From: an uncultured Flavobacteriaceae bacterium
GTDB lineage: Bacteria; Bacteroidota; Bacteroidia; Flavobacteriales; Flavobacteriaceae
Assembly (NCBI GenBank): GCA_938029725.1
Contig: CALHGE010000022.1
Location: 1-64,000, forward strand
Reading direction: 5' to 3'
DNA: 64,000 nt
Shown here in pieces: positions 13,942 through 25,480 of the stretch (position 1 is the first letter of the stretch; the number at the start of each line of letters is the position of its first letter). The translations under genes and the position numbers were made by a program. The notes beneath the pieces are model-generated. The model was not told where the DNA came from and made no database searches. It was given only the letters and a program-made list of their open reading frames with translations.

Positions 13942-15729
13942 TTGAATACAAAAGACCTACTTTCTCAATTAATTAGATTAGAGCGCTCGCTAAATGATTT
14001 TTCATTTGAAGAACTAACAACTGCAGAAGCATCTCACTTAAAAAAATCTTTCCAAGCCTTTCGAGTAAGTTTAGAAAATAAAATATTCACACCTTCTAGC
14101 TCCTTTTTAAACGATACTGAAATTGATACTCCGGCTGATGTAATACTACCTGAAGATCCAAAGAAAAAAGAAATAAAACCACCAAGTGCTGACATGCTAG
14201 TAGCTAAAGTTAGCCACGAAATTAGAACACCACTTAATGGAATTATAGGATTTACCGACCTTCTTAAGGAGGATGAACTTACCAGCATGCAGTTAGAAAG
14301 GGTTAACGCCATTCAAACGGCCTCCTATTCTTTAATGGACATTATCAATGAGTTACTAGAATATTCAAAACTCTCTGCAGGTTTAGAACAATTTGAGTCT
14401 ATTGATTTTAATCTAAATAGTGTTGTTGATAATGTCATGTATTTGTGTGATACGCTTATCATCGGTAAGAATATTGAACTTATAACTACTATTGATAAAG
14501 ATATCCCAATGGGCTTAGTTGGCGACCCGTCTAAATTATCACAAGTGCTGTTGAATTTAGTAGGAAATGCAGTGAAATTTGTAGAAGAGGGAAGCATAAT
14601 CCTTTCTATTGAACTGATAAAACAACGTGGAAATAAATTATTCCTAGCGTTTTCAATTGCCGACACAGGTATCGGAATCTCAGAAAATAGTTTAGCGCAT
14701 ATTTTTGATGCCTACAAGCAAGCTGAATATGATACACAAGCCAAATATGGAGGTTCTGGACTTGGCCTTAGTATTGTTAAACAAATCATCGATACTCTTG
14801 GAGGAGAGATATCTGTATTTAGTAAGCTTGGAGAAGGAACAACTTTTCGTTTCATGCTTCCATTTCAAAAAGGAAGTATCGAAAATATCGTAAAAGTAGC
14901 TGCTGCTTCGGGTATCACTAGTGATGTGCTTGAAGAAGTGGCAGGAATGCATATTCTTGTCTTTGAGGATAATGTAATAAACCAAAAGTTAATTGCTCAA
15001 CGTCTCAAATCTTGGAAATGTAAAACCTATGTTACGGATAATGCACTATATGGCTTGAATCTTCTTGAGACCAACCCAATTGATATGGTCCTTATGGATT
15101 TGAAAATGCCTGGCATGAACGGGTTTGAAGTAACTCAGCTTATTCGTAATAGCAAAATAAAGTCTGTTCTTGAGATACCTATAATCGCTGTCTCCGCAGA
15201 CTTTTCATACCAAGATCGTGAAAATTGTCAACAAAATAAAATCAACGACTTCATTTTAAAGCCTTACAGCCCCGATGAACTCTTAACCAAATTGGTGAAA
15301 AATAAAAATCGAATGAAAACAACGCTCACCATCGAATCGAAAACAATTAACCCGGCGGTTGAGCTCTATACAGATGCAACAAAAATCAACCTTTCAGTGA
15401 TTCTAGAAGATTGTCTCGGACAGATGGATTTACTTGAAGAACTGATCCTACTTTATAAGCAGAATGCGCTAGAATTTATTGGGATAGTGAAACTAAATCT
15501 TGACAAAGACGATTTAGATGAAATAGCTTTCGCAGCACATAAAATCAAATCAGGTCTAGCGATGCTGCAATCGAAGAGTTTGCACATAATTGTGGAGCAA
15601 ATACAGGCTATTTGCAAAGCGAATGGAGACCGTAAGCACTTGATGTTTTTACATAATTGTTTCATTGATGAGTATCCATTAGTAGAAAACGCTATTGATG
15701 AACAAATCAAAGCCCTAAAGAATAATTAG
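13942..15729 (+). CDS. Cytoplasmic hybrid histidine kinase with REC and Hpt domains
   Basis: A 595-residue kinase that starts with TTG, since no ATG is available in frame nearby. The order is: a short coiled N-terminus (1-85); HisKA with the phosphoacceptor in SHEIRTPLNG (His ~92); a HATPase domain (NLVGNAVKFV, DTGIGIS, YGGSGLGLSI); a receiver domain (~335-450, phospho-Asp in VLMDLKMPGMNG); and an Hpt-like domain with AHKIKSG near 533. It has no membrane helix and no recognisable sensor domain, so its signal must be internal or come from a partner. It is the first gene of a six-gene operon, and the response regulator ATG follows its stop codon directly. Confidence 0.93.
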   Translation: MNTKDLLSQLIRLERSLNDFSFEELTTAEASHLKKSFQAFRVSLENKIFTPSSSFLNDTEIDTPADVILPEDPKKKEIKPPSADMLVAKVSHEIRTPLNGIIGFTDLLKEDELTSMQLERVNAIQTASYSLMDIINELLEYSKLSAGLEQFESIDFNLNSVVDNVMYLCDTLIIGKNIELITTIDKDIPMGLVGDPSKLSQVLLNLVGNAVKFVEEGSIILSIELIKQRGNKLFLAFSIADTGIGISENSLAHIFDAYKQAEYDTQAKYGGSGLGLSIVKQIIDTLGGEISVFSKLGEGTTFRFMLPFQKGSIENIVKVAAASGITSDVLEEVAGMHILVFEDNVINQKLIAQRLKSWKCKTYVTDNALYGLNLLETNPIDMVLMDLKMPGMNGFEVTQLIRNSKIKSVLEIPIIAVSADFSYQDRENCQQNKINDFILKPYSPDELLTKLVKNKNRMKTTLTIESKTINPAVELYTDATKINLSVILEDCLGQMDLLEELILLYKQNALEFIGIVKLNLDKDDLDEIAFAAHKIKSGLAMLQSKSLHIIVEQIQAICKANGDRKHLMFLHNCFIDEYPLVENAIDEQIKALKNN

Positions 15730-16101
15730 ATGGAAAAGAAGAAGCTTTTACTTGCTGAAGATGATGAATTACTGGCATCGCTACTGAACTTTCGACTTGT
15801 AAAAGGAGGGTACGAAGTTAAAGTAAGCTCTGATGGTAGAGCGGTAAAAGAACACCTCGCTGAGCATACACCTGATTTAATAATTAGTGATATCATGATG
15901 CCTTATTTCTCTGGAATAGAACTTATTGATTATGTGAGAAAAGAATTAAATCTCAACACTCCAATAATTATCATATCATCGGCAGGAAATGAAGAGAATG
16001 TTTTAACAGCCTTTGAATTAGGCGCGAATGATTTTATATCAAAACCGATTAGTCCTTCTGAATTGATAGTTCGTATAAAAAGAGAGTTACTAAAAGTATA
16101 A
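15730..16101 (+). CDS. Single-domain response regulator
   Basis: A stand-alone receiver domain of 123 residues: acidic pocket LLLAEDDELL, phosphoacceptor in DLIISDIMMPYFSG, threonine/serine switch in PIIIISSAGNEE, and lysine in DFISKPISP. No DNA-binding or enzymatic output is attached, so it likely acts by protein contact. It could be the final acceptor of the multistep phosphorelay of the kinase upstream, and the HEAT protein downstream is the obvious candidate partner (inference). There is no gap after the kinase gene and a one-base gap before the next start, so it is certainly in the same operon. Confidence 0.93.
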   Translation: MEKKKLLLAEDDELLASLLNFRLVKGGYEVKVSSDGRAVKEHLAEHTPDLIISDIMMPYFSGIELIDYVRKELNLNTPIIIISSAGNEENVLTAFELGANDFISKPISPSELIVRIKRELLKV

Positions 16102-16102
16102 T

Positions 16103-19012
16103 TTGATTTTAAATAGCCAAACATATAACCAATTAGCCTTGATTACTGCCCCGAAAATCCACACGGATTTATTATGGGACTTATCATTCTTGTTTATTGG
16201 TTTGGCATCTCTATATTTCATTTTCATCTTTTACTTCAGAAACCGTATATCTAAAAATTTAGAAAGAGTTAAACAAAGCAAAAGAGAGTTTTCGCCAATG
16301 ATAAGTGAATTTCTCTTTCATGAAGAAGAAGCTTCCAAAGATGAAAAAAGCAATTACGTACATCTTAAAATTGAAATCCGTGAATTGTTAAAAGATGATT
16401 TTAACCGAAAGGTTATTTCAGAAGTATTATTAGACTTAAGAAAAGATGTCTCTGGCGATACTCAAAAACGACTTTTTAAATTATACCAAGACCTAGGCCT
16501 GCATACTGATGATTTTGGAAGGTTAAAGAGTTGGCGTTGGCAAATTGTGTCAAAAGCAATTCTGAACCTTACCCAAATGCAAGTTGCAGAAGCCTATAGC
16601 TTTACCACTAAATTTATTAACGATAAAAGAGATACCATACGTAAACAGGCAGAAATAGCTATTGTTACCCTTAAACCAGAGGGTGTTAACTATTTTCTAG
16701 ATACAACCAAATTTAAAATATCTGAGTGGCAACAACTGAAGCTAATGGATGTTCTTCGGATGGATGATGATTATCAACCACCACGATTCAAAGCGTGGTT
16801 GACTTCAACAAATCGCCATGTTGTTCTATTTGCATTGCGCTTAATCAAATTTTACAATCAAAATGATGCAGATGCTTCACTTATAGAATTAGTAAAGCAT
16901 AAGAACAACCAAATTAAAGAGGCGGCGATAAGTTGCATCAAAGAATTTTACATTGTGGAAGCAATCCCAACAATAAAATTAGTTTTCTGGAAGAGTTCTA
17001 CAGATGTCAAGATTTCTATTCTAAATGCCATAGGAGCACTAGGAAGTGAATCCGATATTGAATTTCTTCGGCTTATTGAAAAGAAGGAGCGTAATTTTTC
17101 AGTACGCAGTAAGGCTCATAGCAGTATCAATGAGATAGCGCCAAATAGTATTATGCCATCAAAAGGGGTAGTCAATACAGCGAAATATACAATTCCTTCC
17201 GATATTAAAATAGAAGTAACAGAAGAAGAAATTGATACCGAAGGATTTGTTCAAATAGCAAATTCTAATAGTATAGAGGATATTGAAATTGATACGGAAA
17301 CTGAATCAGAAGAGGAAATAACGATAGAACAGTATTTGCCAACTACTATATCAGAAGAATCTGTTGACAAACCAGAAGAAATAATTGATGATGAAGCTAA
17401 GATCAATATAACGAAGGAAAATCAAGAATCTAAAGAATCAGAAACATTAAGGTCTAATTCGGGTATTATACATTCTGAAGAAAACGATGACTTGAGTTTT
17501 GACTTTTTACCATTTGTGGTAGAAGAATTTATAGCGGTTAAACCTACTGATCTTGATCAAACCGATTACCGTATTGAATTAAACGAGTTGGTAATTAATT
17601 TTGAGGAAGTCTTTCCTAACCAAGAAGTGATCTCTCTAAAGAAAAAGACTTCATCCTTAGAAATTAGAGAAGAGGAACTTGCCTTTTTACCCCTTGTGAC
17701 TGATGCTAAAGAAGAGTCAGACATAGAAAATTTAAATGAAGAGCAATCAAATACGATAGTCGCAATTGAAGAGATAGAAGCTCAATTTGAAGGAGTACAA
17801 CTTGCCTCTTCAGCGAACGAGCCAAAACTTCCTTTGGATTATTCCGAATACAAAACACTTGAGATATTTGACACTCCTGTTGTATATGATGAAATTGATG
17901 TGCCAGTTATAGCTGTTTTTAAAAGCGAAAATAATAGCCAATCAGATCCGTATGCTCTGCCATTACAAAATGAGATTCCCCTAGAAGATACTATGGATTT
18001 AAAATCCAATGCAAACCAACAAACTTCGAAATCTTATGACCTGGAACCTGAAGGCGAACAAAAATTTAAGAAAATCCTTAAAACCTTAATTGACTTTAAG
18101 GAACAAAAGCAATCTAAAGAAACAAAAACAGAACTTGAAGACGCACCTTTATTGGACTTTGTAGATGAATTTAGTGATACCAATAAGATATCTGAAACGG
18201 ATAAAGAAATTGAAAGTAAAATTGACAATGACTTAGCACAGGAGCTTGAAGAAAAAGTTCAAGATAAACCGGAAATTTTCAAAGTAACCATTCCTGAAGC
18301 AATACTTACAGATGACATTTACGATGAAATCATAATCCATAAAGAGAATACCGAAGAATCACGTATGCAATTACTTGACGATATCGCTGCGATGGGAGAT
18401 CAACGTGAGGTTCCACTGTTAATCGAATTATTAGTAAATGAAAAATATCAGGCGGTAACAGATCGTGTAAAAGCGCTGATAGAAAAATTTTCTGAAACTG
18501 AAGAAAAACGAGAACCTGCTATCTTCCTTAAACCTTTCAATGTTTTTGAAGACTTATTTAGAACATGTGATACAGAAGCAAAACTAATTCTAATGGATGA
18601 GATAGTTGCCGTTGGAGATGAAGGTGAAATAGGCTTTTTAGAAGGTTTGTTAGAAGATGCAGATAATGAAATTAGCCATAAAGCTGCACATATAATCGAA
18701 GCACTAAAGGTGAAGATTTTGGCCAATGATAAGACTAAAAATCATTCAAAAAATATAGATACAAACCTTGTTAAAAAAATAGAGGTTGTACTAGAAGAAA
18801 AAACACTTATAAATTATGACTCCTTACTGGAGGAGTTGCAAATTGCGCCACCGAAAACCTCAGAAATTTTTGATCTGACTTTTGAGTTGACTGAGCCTTT
18901 AGATAAAATAGTTGACGAAGAAAGTATTGATGTTGATACCAAACGTCACGATTCTATATTTGGTCAAATATGTTGTTTTTCATCTAAAATCATCGATAAA
19001 CTGAATGGGTAA
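16103..19012 (+). CDS. Membrane-anchored HEAT-repeat protein with long acidic linker
   Basis: A 969-residue protein starting with TTG right behind the response-regulator stop codon. One N-terminal membrane helix (~24-46, LLWDLSFLFIGLASLYFIF) leaves the rest in the cytoplasm. Helical HEAT-like repeats occupy ~60-350 (NDKRDTIRKQAEIAIVTL, NNQIKEAAISCIKEF, STDVKISILNAIGAL). A highly acidic, Glu/Ile-rich, probably disordered region follows (~370-740). A second short HEAT block lies at ~750-870 (RMQLLDDIAAMGDQREVPLL, AKLILMDEIVAVGDEGEI). It is a likely scaffold between the regulator and the glycosyltransferase, whose start lies inside this gene. No catalytic motif is seen. Confidence 0.75.
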   Translation: MILNSQTYNQLALITAPKIHTDLLWDLSFLFIGLASLYFIFIFYFRNRISKNLERVKQSKREFSPMISEFLFHEEEASKDEKSNYVHLKIEIRELLKDDFNRKVISEVLLDLRKDVSGDTQKRLFKLYQDLGLHTDDFGRLKSWRWQIVSKAILNLTQMQVAEAYSFTTKFINDKRDTIRKQAEIAIVTLKPEGVNYFLDTTKFKISEWQQLKLMDVLRMDDDYQPPRFKAWLTSTNRHVVLFALRLIKFYNQNDADASLIELVKHKNNQIKEAAISCIKEFYIVEAIPTIKLVFWKSSTDVKISILNAIGALGSESDIEFLRLIEKKERNFSVRSKAHSSINEIAPNSIMPSKGVVNTAKYTIPSDIKIEVTEEEIDTEGFVQIANSNSIEDIEIDTETESEEEITIEQYLPTTISEESVDKPEEIIDDEAKINITKENQESKESETLRSNSGIIHSEENDDLSFDFLPFVVEEFIAVKPTDLDQTDYRIELNELVINFEEVFPNQEVISLKKKTSSLEIREEELAFLPLVTDAKEESDIENLNEEQSNTIVAIEEIEAQFEGVQLASSANEPKLPLDYSEYKTLEIFDTPVVYDEIDVPVIAVFKSENNSQSDPYALPLQNEIPLEDTMDLKSNANQQTSKSYDLEPEGEQKFKKILKTLIDFKEQKQSKETKTELEDAPLLDFVDEFSDTNKISETDKEIESKIDNDLAQELEEKVQDKPEIFKVTIPEAILTDDIYDEIIIHKENTEESRMQLLDDIAAMGDQREVPLLIELLVNEKYQAVTDRVKALIEKFSETEEKREPAIFLKPFNVFEDLFRTCDTEAKLILMDEIVAVGDEGEIGFLEGLLEDADNEISHKAAHIIEALKVKILANDKTKNHSKNIDTNLVKKIEVVLEEKTLINYDSLLEELQIAPPKTSEIFDLTFELTEPLDKIVDEESIDVDTKRHDSIFGQICCFSSKIIDKLNG

Positions 19013-20435
19013 TGGCATTTCAAATATCGTCCTTGATTATATAAACATTGTTTTTTTCTTGTTTACACTGGTGCTATTTAGCATGTTCTCGTTGATGGCT
19101 TATTTTTCTACAAGAAATTCTATCCATTATAAAAATAAAAACAGTTTTAACGACCTTTCAAAAGTAATGGCATCTCCGCTTGCCCCAAGTATTACAATTA
19201 TAGCTCCTGCCTACAATGAAGGAATGACAATTGTTGAGAATATTAGGTCATTAATGTCACTGCGTTATGTGAACTACGAGGTAATGGTAGTCAATGACGG
19301 TAGCAAAGATGACACCTTGCAAAAAATGATTGCTGCCTATGATTTAGTCAAAATAGAACAAAAAATCGACCCAAACTGGAAGAACAAACCCATTCGAGGC
19401 ATTTATAAATCTCCTCACAAAGCTTTTTCAAAACTTACGGTAATTGATAAAGAAAATGGAGGAAAGTCAGATGCCTTGAATACAGGTATGGCACTATCAT
19501 CAAATAAGTACGTTGGCTGTATTGATGTCGATTGCTTATTACTGCCTGACGCATTGTTGCATGTAGTAAAATCATTTTACCAAAGGTCTGAAAAGAAAGT
19601 AATAGCAGTAGGTGGAGTAATTCGCGTGGCGAATTCTTGTGTTATTAATGGAGGAAGATTAGAGGAAATACGTTTGCCAAAAAACTGGCTAGCAAAATTC
19701 CAACTATTAGAATATACGCGTTCATTTATTCTTGGTAGAATGGCTTGGGCGAGAATTGATAGTCTATTAATTATTTCTGGTGCTTTCGGGTTCTTCGATC
19801 GCGAAATTGCCCTTGAAGTTGGAGGTTATGATACAGGCACAGTAGGAGAGGATATGGAAATTGTCTTCAAGATGCGACGCCATATGCACGACCAAAAAAT
19901 ACCATACACCATAGAATACATTCCAGATCCATTATGTTGGACAGAAGTACCTGAAGACTTAAAAATATTGGTCAATCAAAGAGATCGATGGGCTAGGGGT
20001 AATCTTGAAACACTCTTTAAACATAAAGACATGTTCTTTAACTCCAAATATGGTAGGCTAGGCTTACTTAGTTACCCATATTGGTTTTTCTATGAATGGC
20101 TTGCTCCTCTGTTGGAATTTTTTGGATTGATTACCATTATTTTATTCTGGTACTTAGGCATATTGAATTGGGACTTTTTTTTAGCCATTACAGCTATGGT
20201 GTATATGTACTCTATAATGTTCTCGTTCTATGCAATTTTGTGGGATACGTATTCGTACAACGAATACAAGAAAACCAAAGACATTTTAACCCTCATGTTT
20301 TGCGCTATCATTGAACCCATAGTTTTTCATCCGGTTGTAGTGTGGGCTGCCGTGCGAGGTAATTATAAAAAATTGTTCCGGGTGAAATCAGGTTGGGGAT
20401 CACAGGTGCGTAAAGGGTTTGCAAAAGCAACTTAA
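19005..20435 (+). CDS. Processive family 2 glycosyltransferase, membrane-embedded
   Basis: A 476-residue GT2 of the cellulose/PNAG/hyaluronan synthase type. One N-terminal membrane helix (~10-33) precedes the catalytic domain, which contains APAYNEGMTI, the first Asp in VVNDGSKDD, GGKSDALNTG, the DxD in CIDVDC, the acid in TVGEDMEI, and the NQRDRWARG (Q-x-x-RW) motif of processive enzymes. Three more membrane helices lie at the C-terminus. It probably polymerises an NDP-sugar while extruding the chain across the inner membrane. The sugar is unknown. The start overlaps the HEAT gene by 8 bp, and the LtaS-like gene follows after 8 bp. Confidence 0.9.
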   Translation: MGNGISNIVLDYINIVFFLFTLVLFSMFSLMAYFSTRNSIHYKNKNSFNDLSKVMASPLAPSITIIAPAYNEGMTIVENIRSLMSLRYVNYEVMVVNDGSKDDTLQKMIAAYDLVKIEQKIDPNWKNKPIRGIYKSPHKAFSKLTVIDKENGGKSDALNTGMALSSNKYVGCIDVDCLLLPDALLHVVKSFYQRSEKKVIAVGGVIRVANSCVINGGRLEEIRLPKNWLAKFQLLEYTRSFILGRMAWARIDSLLIISGAFGFFDREIALEVGGYDTGTVGEDMEIVFKMRRHMHDQKIPYTIEYIPDPLCWTEVPEDLKILVNQRDRWARGNLETLFKHKDMFFNSKYGRLGLLSYPYWFFYEWLAPLLEFFGLITIILFWYLGILNWDFFLAITAMVYMYSIMFSFYAILWDTYSYNEYKKTKDILTLMFCAIIEPIVFHPVVVWAAVRGNYKKLFRVKSGWGSQVRKGFAKAT

Positions 20436-20443
20436 CATATATA

Positions 20444-22828
20444 ATGAATACTAGCAAAAGAGACAGGTATAGCTTAAAGCAATACACAAGAATGATCATC
20501 TCATTCTTTGTGGTTTTGTTGGTGCTCTCTATATACCAATACGCAACTTTGTATTTTAAAGGAGTTGTGGATACCATTTTTGGTACTAGTTTTTTCATTG
20601 CTGCTTTTCATCAACTTGGTTACGCTTCTTTAGTAGGTGTTCTGTTGGCCTTCCCTTTTAATTTTTGGGAAAACCTAAGACCTCGATATGGTTTTAACCT
20701 TGTTTTCGTTTTACTTATCTGTTTACTTATTATCGAAGCAATGCTGATTAGCTATTACTGTACAGCCCTTGTTCCATTAGGTTCTGATTTAATGGGCTAT
20801 AGTTTTAAGGATATTAAAATGACGATTTCTAATTCAGGCGGCATGTCCATTTCGGTAGTGGTAGGGGTCTTGGTTATTGTAGGTATGTTCTTCGGATTGT
20901 ATAAGTTCACCTCGAAGTACTACCACTACATCAGTAAGATGTATCCGTTTACGATTATTCTATTCAGCTTGTTTATCATGACGCTTTTCCTTGATGGGAA
21001 GCCAATTAACCAAAACAAGACGCAGTATTTAGCTTTAAATCTATATGATACTTCTACAGAAGATACATCGTATAAGGCTGAGGTTGAGTATCCTTTGATA
21101 AAATCGCAGCAAATCGAAAACGTACTGGGTGAATACTTTGAACTTAAGACAGAAAAACCCAATATTGTGTTTATCATGGTGGAAGGCCTTGGTAGAGATT
21201 TTGTAGGTGAAGGAGCAGAGTATGGCGGTTTCACTCCTTTTTTAGATGAACTAACTACAAAATCATTGTATTGGGAAAATTGCTTGAGTAATACTGGTAG
21301 AACATTCGGCGTATTACCCTCTTTAATGGGTTCCCTTCCTTTTGGAAAAAGCGGATTTATGGAACTCCAAAAATATCCTAATAAATTAACCCTGTATAGT
21401 ATATTAAAGAACAACGGGTACCATACCTCTTTCTATCAAGGCACCAATAGTTCTTTTGATAATGTAGATAGATTTCTGCTTAGCGAGAATGTTGATTTTG
21501 TTTTGGATAAATCTGGTTTCGGAAATCAATATGAATTGCAAGAAGAAGATGCAGCGGGTTCTACCTGGGGGTATCCAGACAAAGAACTTTTCAAAAAAAG
21601 CATGTCCATTTCAAGAGATGAGAAACAACCTCGAATGGAAGTATATATGACTATTAGTACCCATGAACCTTTCATTCCACCAAAACAAGACTACTATGAG
21701 AGCGAAGTCGAAAAGATAGTAGAAAAGGGTGACTACCAAGGTAAAATCAAAAAAGTAATAGAGAAAAATGATAATGTTTTTGCAACCTTGCTTTATACTG
21801 ATAATGCATTAAAATATCTTTTAGAGGAGTACAAGAAACAACCCAACTATGACAATACTATTTTTATTGTTACCGGCGACCACAGATTGATTCCAATTCC
21901 ACAGCGAAACAACCTAAGCCGTTTTCATGTGCCCTTGATTGTGTTTAGTCCGATGTTAAAGAAAACTAGAAAGATGAGTGCGCTTAACTCGCACTTTGAT
22001 GTTACACCAACACTATTGGCATTGCTTGAAGCTAAGTACGAATTAAAAACACCTAAAAAGGTAGCTTGGATGGGCGCTGCGCTTGATATGAACGAAGGCT
22101 TTAGATCAATTAAAGATATTCCACTAATGCGAAACAAAAACGAATTGAAGGAGTTCGTTGATGGAGAGAAGCTATTTTCTGATGGAGAGGTGTACGATAT
22201 TGATGAGAATATGGATTTAAGTTCTTCTTTCGGAGGCTCAAAAGGCGAATCGAAGCTAAGATCATTCAAGGCGATGAATGCCTATGTAACTACAAATAAT
22301 AAAATAATACCAGATAATATGGCCGTCTTTGCCATAAAGGAAGAGAAATTTACAGATAGTGAAGTTGTTTGGATCAATAGTGTGTATAACGGGCAAGATT
22401 CAGATAAGGGGTATTTCATTGCGAGAGCACTTGCTTTTGATAAGAAATTTTCTAAATCGTTATTATTATGCAAATCTATTTTAGCTGACGCTCCTAGTCA
22501 TATAGATACCAAAATACTAACAGGAAGAATCAATGTTTGGCAGGGTAACTATAAAACATCGATAGCTATCTTGAAGGAATGTATTAAAATGAACCCGAAC
22601 TATATCGATTCGTATGCTGCTCTTTTTGATGTGTATTTCTGGTCTGATAGATATAAAGAAGGATTAGAACTAGCAGCGCTTGCCAAACAAAATAGCTCGA
22701 GTGTAAATGAGATTGCTGATAAAATTGCAAGAGCAAAAAGAGAAGCTCGGAAAAGAGGGATTGTGTTGACAAAAAAAATGCCTCAAAAACAAGCAAAAGA
22801 AATTGCTATGATACGCTTTGAACAATAA
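20444..22828 (+). CDS. LtaS-like sulfatase-fold phosphotransferase with C-terminal TPR
   Basis: A 794-residue protein. About five membrane helices fill residues 15-185. An alkaline-phosphatase-superfamily domain (~230-560) follows with metal site IVFIMVEGLG, the putative catalytic Thr in SNTGRTFGVLPSLMGS, YMTISTHEPF, and VTGDHRLIP. Gram-positive LtaS and Gram-negative OpgB/EptA-like enzymes share this layout and transfer phosphoglycerol or similar groups outside the membrane. The C-terminus (~670-760) carries TPR-like helices (WQGNYKTSIAILKECI). Gene fusion of TPR to this fold and its place between a GT2 and an outer-membrane barrel suggest it decorates the polymer (inference). Its stop codon overlaps the next start (TAATG). 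Confidence 0.85.
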   Translation: MNTSKRDRYSLKQYTRMIISFFVVLLVLSIYQYATLYFKGVVDTIFGTSFFIAAFHQLGYASLVGVLLAFPFNFWENLRPRYGFNLVFVLLICLLIIEAMLISYYCTALVPLGSDLMGYSFKDIKMTISNSGGMSISVVVGVLVIVGMFFGLYKFTSKYYHYISKMYPFTIILFSLFIMTLFLDGKPINQNKTQYLALNLYDTSTEDTSYKAEVEYPLIKSQQIENVLGEYFELKTEKPNIVFIMVEGLGRDFVGEGAEYGGFTPFLDELTTKSLYWENCLSNTGRTFGVLPSLMGSLPFGKSGFMELQKYPNKLTLYSILKNNGYHTSFYQGTNSSFDNVDRFLLSENVDFVLDKSGFGNQYELQEEDAAGSTWGYPDKELFKKSMSISRDEKQPRMEVYMTISTHEPFIPPKQDYYESEVEKIVEKGDYQGKIKKVIEKNDNVFATLLYTDNALKYLLEEYKKQPNYDNTIFIVTGDHRLIPIPQRNNLSRFHVPLIVFSPMLKKTRKMSALNSHFDVTPTLLALLEAKYELKTPKKVAWMGAALDMNEGFRSIKDIPLMRNKNELKEFVDGEKLFSDGEVYDIDENMDLSSSFGGSKGESKLRSFKAMNAYVTTNNKIIPDNMAVFAIKEEKFTDSEVVWINSVYNGQDSDKGYFIARALAFDKKFSKSLLLCKSILADAPSHIDTKILTGRINVWQGNYKTSIAILKECIKMNPNYIDSYAALFDVYFWSDRYKEGLELAALAKQNSSSVNEIADKIARAKREARKRGIVLTKKMPQKQAKEIAMIRFEQ

Positions 22829-24159
22829 TGCTATCTAAAAATACACATACTGTTTTGTTCTTCGGATTCCTCTGTTTCTTTGGCAGAGGCCAAGATCTGG
22901 CCTACAATGAGGCAAGCGAAACAGCATATACTACAGCACATAATCTCGCGTATGAAGGAAATCATAGACCCGCAAAGGATATACTCCGTGAAATACTTTC
23001 TAAGAATCCAGAGAATTTAGAAGCACGAGTCTTGCTGGCCAGTACGTATAGCTGGAGTGGTCAATATGATAAAGCAAGAGATGAATTCAATGCCGTAACA
23101 TCTCAAGAAAGAACCAACAGCGCTGTATGGATTTCAGCCATTAAAAATGAGCTTTACGCAAAACAAAACGCTACAGCATTAGGGCTAGCAAATAAGGCTT
23201 TGATGTACCTCAAAAATAATACAGAGGTTGAAAGACTACTTCAGATTAGTATGGTGAAAATTCAGAATAAAACACACACTGAATTGGCTTGGTACAATAC
23301 AAAGTCTCCGCTAAATAGCCTCATTTCATCTAAAAAAAAATCAAAGGGCAAAGCTACTCCAAACGCGAAAAAAGAGGTGGCTTTAGAAGAATCAAATCAA
23401 GCGAAAACCCCAGTAGCTAAGGAAGAACAAAAGAACAGGTTAGCTATCAGAAACGCTTTTACCGTATTTGACCAGCGATATGATCCTGTTGTTTATTCTA
23501 GTATTTCTTTTAGAAGACAAACCCAAGCGGGAAGCATTATACCAAGAATCAATTATAGTAACCGCAACAATCAAAATGGCATTCAGTACGATATTGATTT
23601 CTATCCTAAATTCTCGAAGCGGTTTTATGCTTATTTAAACTATGGCTATTCAAAGGCTACTATTTACCCAAATCATAAGATGGGTGGAGATTTATATGTT
23701 AATCTGCCAGGAGCGTTTGAATTCTCAGCAGGTGGTCGTCATATTCGTTTTCCTACCAGAAATATTTCTGTAATCACAAATTCTTTAGGGCATTATCGCG
23801 GAAACTATTATTTTTCTCTTCGCTCATATATTACACCAAAACCAAGTAACTTAACAAGTATATCTGGAAACTTACTAATTCGAAAGTACTTAAAAGATGC
23901 TGAAAACTTTTTTGGCATCAATGTCGGTATGGGGTATTCTCCAGAATTGCGACAGTTAATATCAGGAGATGAGTTGTTAGCAGAAACACTTCTCTTCGTA
24001 GAATCGCAACGCTTGAGTCTAGAGTACCAGTTCACTGGTAAAAAAAATCCGAATGCATATCGCGCTAATATGAGTGTTGCACGTCAAGAGCTCGCATTCG
24101 ATTCTGGAAGTTTCTTCTGGGGAATATCTGCAGGGTTGACCTATCAGGTGAATTTCTAA
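22828..24159 (+). CDS. YaiO-family outer-membrane beta-barrel with N-terminal TPR
   Basis: A 443-residue protein. The hydrophobic start (VLFFGFLCFFGRGQ) is a plausible signal peptide. Residues ~40-150 are TPR repeats (NHRPAKDILREILSKNPENL, SGQYDKARDEFNAV). A basic linker rich in Lys follows at ~165-205. The C-terminal ~240 residues form alternating beta strands ending in GLTYQVNF, a typical outer-membrane barrel end with terminal Phe, and match the YaiO family. YaiO-type barrels often accompany exopolysaccharide synthases. It is probably the exit pore or anchor for the product of this operon. It is the last gene, and its stop codon lies 22 bp from that of the convergent GDPD-like gene. Confidence 0.85.
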   Translation: MLSKNTHTVLFFGFLCFFGRGQDLAYNEASETAYTTAHNLAYEGNHRPAKDILREILSKNPENLEARVLLASTYSWSGQYDKARDEFNAVTSQERTNSAVWISAIKNELYAKQNATALGLANKALMYLKNNTEVERLLQISMVKIQNKTHTELAWYNTKSPLNSLISSKKKSKGKATPNAKKEVALEESNQAKTPVAKEEQKNRLAIRNAFTVFDQRYDPVVYSSISFRRQTQAGSIIPRINYSNRNNQNGIQYDIDFYPKFSKRFYAYLNYGYSKATIYPNHKMGGDLYVNLPGAFEFSAGGRHIRFPTRNISVITNSLGHYRGNYYFSLRSYITPKPSNLTSISGNLLIRKYLKDAENFFGINVGMGYSPELRQLISGDELLAETLLFVESQRLSLEYQFTGKKNPNAYRANMSVARQELAFDSGSFFWGISAGLTYQVNF

Positions 24160-24181
24160 AACCTTGTACGAGTTGATGCTA

Positions 24182-25480
24182 CTACTTTGTCATCTTCTCT
24201 TTAGGAAGATCAAAAGCCCATTTATCAGCATACATACCATATACAAGTCCGATTTCATTTTCCTGAACATACTTTTCATCCTTGCCTGGATCAAAGTTCA
24301 CATTGTACACATAAACCTTTATGCCTTGCTCTTTTAGTTTTAAAAGTAATTTGGTTTCGTTGTTCAGTATTCTTCTTGACAAGGCTACATACTTTACATT
24401 ATTGACCTTCAAATAATTGATTTTATCACCAATAATTCTCATTAAAGGCGTTTGGGAAATCATAGCCTGAATACCATGTCTAGAAGCTTCCTCAACAGCC
24501 ATTTGGCTAAAGAGTTCCATAACAAGCCTATCTTTATCTACAAATTGATCAGCAAAAGCTATCGGATCGTTTACTTTATCGGTCACTAGAGTTGCATCAG
24601 TATGAGCAGCAAACCAAGCATTGATTCCTTTTAAATCAAGCGTGGTGTAGTCACCATATATTTTATGCTTCATGAATTCATCGTGACTGGGAGGCAGAGC
24701 TCCTGAGTAATCAGTAAAGCGTGACCACATCTTCCAATCATGGGCAGCCACCATTTTTTTATCTGATGTTTCTATAATATCCAATTCAAAAAGCCGAAAC
24801 CCTTTTTTATAATTCTGATCTAGAGCTTCTTTTGAATTAGTTGATTTAATACCGTTAACGGCACCGCCAGCATGAGCTATATATCTATTGTTATTTGGTT
24901 CAAATGCATAGCTTATTTTTGGAAAATAAACTTCCGTATCAGAAATACTTTTAGGTATGTTTACTATAACCGTGGTAGAAGAATCATCTATACTTTCAAA
25001 GGTTTTTCCTTTAAAATTATGCATAATATAGGCCTGTCTGCTTTTTAATGTACTCAACTGAAGTAGTCCTAATTGGGCTAACTTCTCAGCTTGTTTCTTT
25101 AAACTCTGAGCTGCAGAATCATGAGCTAATATGGCGAACTTCGCCTTATTTTTTAGCATTTTTTCTAGAATCAGTACCATCTTTTCGGCTGCTTCCTCGT
25201 TAGAATGGGTGTCGAAAGTTCTAAATTCAATTATGTTCGAAGTATTAAAATGTATAATTGTCAAGCCACGCCCGGGTTGTTCGGTTTGGTTTGCTATGGT
25301 AAACCCACTTCGTTTCTTTGCATTAAAACTATTGCTATTAAGTTCAATTGTTGGTGATTCAATATTTGTAGTCGAACTTAGAATTGATTTCGTTTCGGCA
25401 ATTACAGCCTGTGTAAAACACATCCCTAATAAAAAAGAGAAGAAAGTTTTTGTAAGAATAGATATAGAAGGTGTATTCAC
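24182..25480 (-). CDS. Secreted ILEI/FAM3-like domain fused to GDPD-like phosphodiesterase
   Basis: A 432-residue exported protein. The start is GTG at 25480, because an in-frame stop lies 18 bp upstream and no ATG precedes the signal peptide. Residues ~58-168 read like the ILEI/FAM3 domain (GRGLTIIHFNTSNIIEFRTF, then FAILAHDSAAQSL, and the YIMHNFKG strand). Residues ~197-430 are a glycerophosphodiester-phosphodiesterase-like TIM barrel: IAHAGG, FELDIIETSD, VAAHDW. The usual His-Arg is His-Ala here, while the two His and the Glu/Asp pair are kept, as in the HAGG branch of the family. It may hydrolyse phosphodiesters in the envelope or in the polymer made by the convergent operon (inference). 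Confidence 0.75.
   Translation of the reverse strand: MNTPSISILTKTFFSFLLGMCFTQAVIAETKSILSSTTNIESPTIELNSNSFNAKKRSGFTIANQTEQPGRGLTIIHFNTSNIIEFRTFDTHSNEEAAEKMVLILEKMLKNKAKFAILAHDSAAQSLKKQAEKLAQLGLLQLSTLKSRQAYIMHNFKGKTFESIDDSSTTVIVNIPKSISDTEVYFPKISYAFEPNNNRYIAHAGGAVNGIKSTNSKEALDQNYKKGFRLFELDIIETSDKKMVAAHDWKMWSRFTDYSGALPPSHDEFMKHKIYGDYTTLDLKGINAWFAAHTDATLVTDKVNDPIAFADQFVDKDRLVMELFSQMAVEEASRHGIQAMISQTPLMRIIGDKINYLKVNNVKYVALSRRILNNETKLLLKLKEQGIKVYVYNVNFDPGKDEKYVQENEIGLVYGMYADKWAFDLPKEKMTK

Follow-up and report, generated by a model that had tools for sequence, protein, structure and literature searches.

Introduction

ILEI/FAM3 domains have been studied mostly as animal cytokines, and in the FAM3 cytokine subfamily the cysteines of the domain form disulphides. 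In polymer decoration, LtaS draws its group from phosphatidylglycerol and so delivers sn-glycerol-1-phosphate; to our knowledge, no C-terminal ILEI or GDPD domain is on record for E. coli OpgB or for LtaS. The POMGnT1 stem binds beta-GlcNAc via Arg129, Asp179 and Arg207, and FAM3A and FAM3C bind GlcNAc as well (PMC9802357). Within the GDPD family, GlpQ shows specificity for sn-glycerol-3-phosphate and leaves intact LTA alone (PMC7086022). LyPls-PLD is an active member that hydrolyses its natural substrate, with His46 proposed as catalytic (PMC5095149), and it converts lysoPAF to a cyclic phosphate (PMC8016129). A search of the open-licence literature returned nothing relevant on bacterial ILEI domains, on PF15711, or on the pairing of phosphoglycerol transferase and GDPD in polysaccharides, and nothing useful on the operon described below.

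Here we describe ILEI-GDPD, encoded beside a polymer operon in a 64,000-nucleotide stretch of DNA from an uncultured Flavobacteriaceae bacterium (contig CALHGE010000022.1); this whole stretch is called the window. On balance we believe that ILEI-GDPD works in the periplasm as a phosphodiesterase anchored to carbohydrate, and that it edits the phosphodiester groups, probably sn-1 phosphoglycerol, attached to the polysaccharide of the operon. The basis computed here consists of both folds, the conserved catalytic and sugar-site residues, fusions of the OpgB type, and co-occurrence with an intact transferase.

Results

ILEI-GDPD joins an ILEI domain to a GDPD-type barrel

The gene coordinates bear out the tail-to-tail placement at the operon end that the original prediction had described (Table 1). 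In a promoter and terminator scan, no clear terminator was found within the 22-bp gap for either the YaiO or the ILEI-GDPD gene. The signal peptide was assigned by eye from the hydrophobic N-terminal segment. A lipobox and a T9SS tail were both looked for in the translation and neither was seen, which points to the periplasm as the probable location of the protein.

Table 1. Features of the ILEI-GDPD gene and the adjoining operon (positions in the window)
Feature	Position	Strand	Remarks
Hybrid histidine kinase, operon head	13942-15729	+	Profile match
Single-domain response regulator	15730-16101	+	Profile match
HEAT-repeat protein	16103-19012	+	PF13646; conserved in synteny
GT2 polysaccharide synthase, PgaC/IcaA-like	19005-20435	+	TIGR03937 151 bits, under family cut-off 422
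LTAS-I, LtaS/OpgB-like membrane phosphotransferase	20444-22828	+	794 aa; E247, T287, H407, D479, H480, H495 intact
TPR + YaiO outer-membrane barrel protein, last operon gene	22828-24159	+	PF19413 215.8 bits; TIGR04390 189 bits
Convergent gap	24160-24181	.	22 bp, tail-to-tail; YaiO gene end 24159, ILEI-GDPD gene end 24182
ILEI-GDPD gene	24182-25480	-	432 aa, GTG start; signal peptide, ILEI/FAM3 domain, HAGG-type GDPD barrel
GDPD-type TIM barrel	24197-24907	-	Residues 192-428; His203, Glu232, Asp234, His247, Lys302 invariant
HAGG motif (HA for HR)	24863-24874	-	Residues 203-206, H203-A204-G205-G206
ILEI/FAM3 (POMGnT1-stem-like) domain	24920-25360	-	Residues 41-187; Pfam match residues 71-158 = 25007-25270
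Arg148, proposed sugar contact	25037-25039	-	Conserved 64/66
Asp121, proposed sugar contact	25118-25120	-	Conserved 65/66
Arg71, proposed equivalent of POMGnT1 Arg129	25268-25270	-	Conserved 65/66
Sec-type signal peptide	25397-25480	-	About residues 1-28, ...FTQAVIA|ET; read from translation and N-termini of relatives

The original prediction of an ILEI domain fused to a GDPD-like domain was confirmed for both halves, each of which scored above its Pfam cut-off and matched the expected fold. The Pfam ILEI profile (PF15711) gave 32.6 bits against a cut-off of 27 (E 1.1e-07), and matched 50 of 66 ILEI-GDPD family members at E<=0.01. In the reverse direction, a profile built from the 66 homologs and compared with solved structures found FAM3B (E 2e-05), followed by CEMIP2/TMEM2, FAM3A and FAM3C; a profile of the ILEI part only gave the same FAM3-type matches. 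The AlphaFold2 model (pLDDT 89.7) agreed best over residues 41-187 with the POMGnT1 stem (5ggf; Z 15.8, rmsd 2.9, 141 aligned, 22% identity), and the predicted likeness to FAM3 proteins was found for FAM3B (2yop, Z 13.5), FAM3C (5lc3, Z 13.3) and FAM3A (Z 12.9). Profile, reverse profile and fold together rule out chance similarity. Residues 40-187 hold no cysteine; this is therefore an ILEI domain, but not one of the FAM3 secreted cytokines.

R71, D121 and R148 align with the equivalent FAM3 columns in the HMM alignment, and their spacing (50/27) nearly reproduces that of POMGnT1 (50/28). Judged by the FAM3 alignment and the spacing, rather than by superposition, they would be the equivalents of the POMGnT1 GlcNAc contacts, and the ILEI domain is predicted to bind carbohydrate. 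Elsewhere in Bacteroidia genomes, most PF15711 matches lie in very long ORFs, about 1650-1780 aa in many genomes. One locus (L108) combines Peptidase_C25, ILEI, CARDB and FlgD_ig within one frame, and ORFs of about 673 aa at two others (L124, L133) hold ILEI only.

The GDPD assignment was less clear from profiles. Pfam GDPD (PF03009) matched from residue 215 with 31.7 bits (cut-off 23.6, E 2.2e-07) when the whole protein was searched, and a six-frame single-domain search gave only 20.9 bits, weak by itself. Despite that weak score, the assignment is settled by the fold match: the model of residues 192-428 superimposed on the GDPDs T. maritima TM1621 (1o1z, Z 21.0), the C-terminal domain of S. 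aureus phage K gp155 (9f5m, Z 20.5) and B. subtilis GlpQ (5t91, Z 19.9). The barrel also matches the N-terminal GDPD-like barrel of a 'multidomain beta-1,3(4)-glucanase' (PDB 7ww4/7wwc, Z about 20), another GDPD fold associated with polysaccharides.

The catalytic His pair (H203, H247) and the Glu-x-Asp metal site (E232, D234) of the GDPD family are present, and these four residues, K302 and E322 are identical in 66/66 homologs. The HA in place of the classical HR dyad, to which the original prediction drew attention, is indeed present, but is not peculiar to this protein: HA occurs in 65/66 homologs and HG in the remaining one, and the closest solved GDPD by sequence, LyPls-PLD, has the same AHAGG(E) motif. 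Since LyPls-PLD is active, HA for HR does not imply an inactive enzyme. T300-D301-K302 is likewise invariant or nearly so, where the canonical GDPD of the same genome reads IELK (correspondence set by eye). By its motif we would class ILEI-GDPD as HAGG-type, like LyPls-PLD, rather than as a classical GDPD, and with HR changed to HA and ExK apparently to TDK, its chemistry may therefore differ from the classical one. The same two family-wide alterations could be taken as signs of a dead barrel, leaving a protein that mainly binds sugar and serves the export complex as scaffold or chaperone. This we hold to be very improbable: complete identity of the catalytic H, E, D, H and K across the 66 homologs is unexpected for a dead enzyme, and LyPls-PLD works despite its HAGG.

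The adjoining operon encodes an LtaS/OpgB-like transferase

LTAS-I matched the LtaS2 structure 2w8d (E 2e-12) and scored 65.7 bits with the NCBIfam LtaS model. As this is far under the equivalog cut-off of 970, we call it LtaS/OpgB-like, not proven LtaS or OpgB; phosphoglycerol is the head group that it would be expected to move. The HEAT-repeat protein is variable, with about 30-70% identity among relatives against 76-95% for GT2. Often only its first 350-560 residues align well, and the C-terminal half appears to evolve rapidly.

Relatives include fusions to phosphoglycerol transferases

A genome scan for ILEI-GDPD relatives returned 80 loci, and the best named relatives belong to Maribacter, Zobellia, Pricia, Croceitalea and similar Flavobacteriaceae. 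The neighbourhood that had suggested a polymer role recurs, with the same operon adjoining in comparable arrangement in 35 loci (context A), but the placement is not constant and at least 13 loci lie elsewhere. These 13, and one fragment, adjoin DUF6909 and rmlBACD genes, a sugar-nucleotide cluster (context B), and are tail-to-tail with a GH3 gene where the contig extends far enough. The remaining loci comprise 28 long fusions, a further fusion whose frame is broken, and two GDPD-only genes, one of which (L107) adjoins a sulfatase-fold gene. In one genome (G598; L038 / L157), the operon and ILEI-GDPD are found together outside the usual sigma-factor neighbourhood, still tail-to-tail, and seem to have moved as one unit. 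No relatives were found in viral contigs, searched for close relatives only, or in a phage collection, and a viral or phage origin was ruled out on this ground; plasmid records gave weak GDPD-only matches and nothing more.

Every one of the 28 long fusions matches phosphoglycerol transferase I (PRK12363). Fusions are also found under the record labels Cytophagales, Marinilabilia, Campylobacterales, Sulfurospirillum, Gammaproteobacteria and Desulfopila. In the Desulfopila protein (L103), the OpgB match (7e-125) spans residues 10-617 and the HAGG-GDPD follows directly at 635-867; the NCBIfam OpgB profile covers only the part ahead of the GDPD domain. Some fusions carry ILEI in the middle, between transferase and GDPD, and in one such chain (L075) sulfatase (71 bits), ILEI (30 bits) and GDPD (28 bits) each score above cut-off. 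The commonest neighbours of the fusions, by raw counts taken without background or enrichment test, are glycosyltransferases and sugar-nucleotide enzymes/epimerases. In Maribacter halichondriae, a PGT-ILEI-GDPD gene (L082, 9956-11158) appears split by a broken frame, and a separate context-A copy (L030) is intact.

On a quick tree of the GDPD domain, with long branches among the fusions, the standalone ILEI-GDPDs all group in a single clade (SH-aLRT 99). PGT-ILEI-GDPD fusions are its nearest neighbours on the tree, and several context-B genes branch early. This topology is consistent with an origin of the standalone protein by fission of PGT-ILEI-GDPD.

Fusion with a transferase would also suit a second synthetic step, in which the HAGG/TDK site passes the phosphoryl group on to a different hydroxyl of the polymer or releases a cyclic phosphate, so that ILEI-GDPD as a transferase, cyclase or synthetase completes the decoration. 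The family-wide changes of HR to HA and, apparently, ExK to TDK fit such a role, and there are precedents: GDPD-derived AvrBs2 synthesises a cyclic galactose phosphodiester (PMC12807533), and the cyclic phosphate made from lysoPAF is the product of an HAGG enzyme (PMC8016129). However, the natural substrate of that enzyme, LyPls-PLD, is hydrolysed (PMC5095149), and the acid-base residues and the E/D metal residues of hydrolytic GDPDs are all retained in ILEI-GDPD. We regard a synthetic role as unlikely, though worth keeping in mind.

ILEI-GDPD is found with catalytically intact LTAS

Among 46 syntenic operons, ILEI-GDPD was present with 25 of the 27 that encode a catalytically intact LTAS and with none of the 19 whose LTAS is dead (Fisher 5e-11, a value that overstates independence because the dead LTAS mostly form one clade). 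All 27 type-I proteins keep E-T-H-D-H-H, that is, the catalytic Glu and Thr, the Asp-His metal site and the substrate His; the 19 diverged proteins lack the metal-site Asp, the substrate His and usually more residues. Chromosomal neighbours and GT2 are equally conserved in both groups, which differ mainly in LTAS and YaiO. Similarly, across 299 family genomes, the 19 with standalone ILEI-GDPD all fall within the 21 that have the LTAS type of the window (>=69% identity), and the 43 with diverged LTAS have none. A separate LTAS lineage (G471) is likewise dead and likewise without ILEI-GDPD. The 19 operons with LTAS missing catalytic residues (L139-L144, L168-L179; e.g. ESKSHK for ETHDHH) are otherwise conserved, and these homologs are likely pseudo-enzymes retained in them.

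Linkage was ruled out as the sole cause, because in 10 of the 25 intact-LTAS genomes the gene lies at another locus and LTAS is intact in all ten. Mapping ILEI-GDPD presence takes 3 changes on the LTAS tree, 7 on the GT2 tree and 13 on a chromosomal-marker tree; on the marker tree LTAS switches type about 11 times, with ILEI-GDPD presence following. When only well-supported branches were used, 4.7/5 independent pairs agreed (median p 0.06), and once linked genomes were excluded, 3 of the 4 pairs agreed and 1 showed no difference. The pattern is consistent, and the strictest test is underpowered. Two genomes (G014, G628) are exceptions with intact LTAS-I and no ILEI-GDPD; tblastn of the operon region found no degraded copies in them. 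In a more distant operon class, 11 genomes have an intact LTAS homolog and lack ILEI-GDPD.

Fusion to OpgB-type transferases and this co-occurrence are better evidence for a polymer role than the position beside the operon. They also bear on whether ILEI-GDPD is an ordinary periplasmic GDPD that scavenges glycerol phosphate from phospholipid head groups, its operon position being incidental. GDPDs are common in bacteria (present in 11/14 control genomes), and the GDPD-like fold and catalytic residues would suit such a task. Nevertheless, the genome already carries a separate canonical HRG GDPD (L192) for such work, and a scavenger would need neither an ILEI domain nor to track the transferase allele, leaving both the co-occurrence and the fusions unexplained. 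We consider scavenging improbable.

Discussion

We return to the editing phosphodiesterase as the preferred reading. For this enzyme we infer what it acts on, that it hydrolyses, that it binds sugar, that it resides in the periplasm, and in which order the steps take place. The polysaccharide would be made by the GT2 enzyme, and LTAS-I would transfer to it a phosphodiester group, for which sn-glycerol-1-phosphate taken from phosphatidylglycerol is the likeliest candidate. ILEI-GDPD would hold the sugar backbone by its POMGnT1-like site (R71, D121, R148) while the GDPD site, with H203/H247 in acid-base catalysis and E232/D234 binding metal, would cleave the substituent and thereby set or recycle the degree of substitution. 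The polymer would exit via the TPR-YaiO outer-membrane protein. Since an LtaS-type product would be sn-1 and GlpQ is sn-3-specific, a dedicated sn-1 enzyme is reasonable to expect.

A broader proposal, which we advance tentatively and give less credence, is a write-and-edit module, not described before, for the surface polysaccharides of Gram-negative bacteria. Its two parts, an OpgB/LtaS-type transferase and ILEI-GDPD, either separate or fused as PGT-ILEI-GDPD, would jointly set the phosphoglycerol pattern. The sugar-anchored HAGG-GDPD would show specificity for esters of sn-glycerol-1-phosphate, the reverse of GlpQ, or would cyclise or transfer them; the editor would be absent whenever the transferase is dead.

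That an ILEI domain lies beside a catalytic domain in a polymer pathway of a marine flavobacterium, and keeps equivalents of the residues by which POMGnT1 contacts GlcNAc, speaks for carbohydrate binding as the role of the fold; bacterial ILEI-GDPD offers a simple system for testing it. For the uncharacterised HAGG-GDPD family, which is found in Bacteroidota and also, chiefly in fused form, in gammaproteobacterial, campylobacterial and desulfobacterial records, the transferase fusions and the absence with dead transferase point to a concrete substrate class. The resulting prediction is sharp: the glycerol phosphate should be sn-1, not sn-3.

Compared with known systems, ILEI-GDPD shares with the POMGnT1 stem (5ggf/5ggl) and FAM3A/B/C the fold, the PF15711 match and the R/D/R sugar-contact residues at near-identical spacing. 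It differs in that its ILEI domain is attached to a GDPD barrel, rather than to a glycosyltransferase or standing alone, is free of cysteine, and belongs to a bacterial protein predicted to be periplasmic. With GDPDs such as GlpQ (5t91), TM1621 (1o1z) and gp155 (9f5m), it shares the TIM barrel (Z 19.9-21), the acid-base His pair and the Glu/Asp metal pair; the classical members lack its HA for HR, its TDK (apparently for ExK) and its N-terminal ILEI domain. LyPls-PLD, its best sequence match among solved GDPDs, has the AHAGG catalytic motif in common with it, but is a lipid enzyme of Thermocrispum without ILEI, and has its own Glu175 and Lys177 (PMC5095149, PMC8016129) where the ILEI-GDPD family would place T-D-K. 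OpgB/MdoB phosphoglycerol transferase I and LtaS represent both the enzyme type fused to distant ILEI-GDPD homologs and the type of the neighbouring LTAS-I. The product of LtaS/OpgB would bear sn-glycerol-1-phosphate, whereas GlpQ is specific for sn-glycerol-3-phosphate (PMC7086022).
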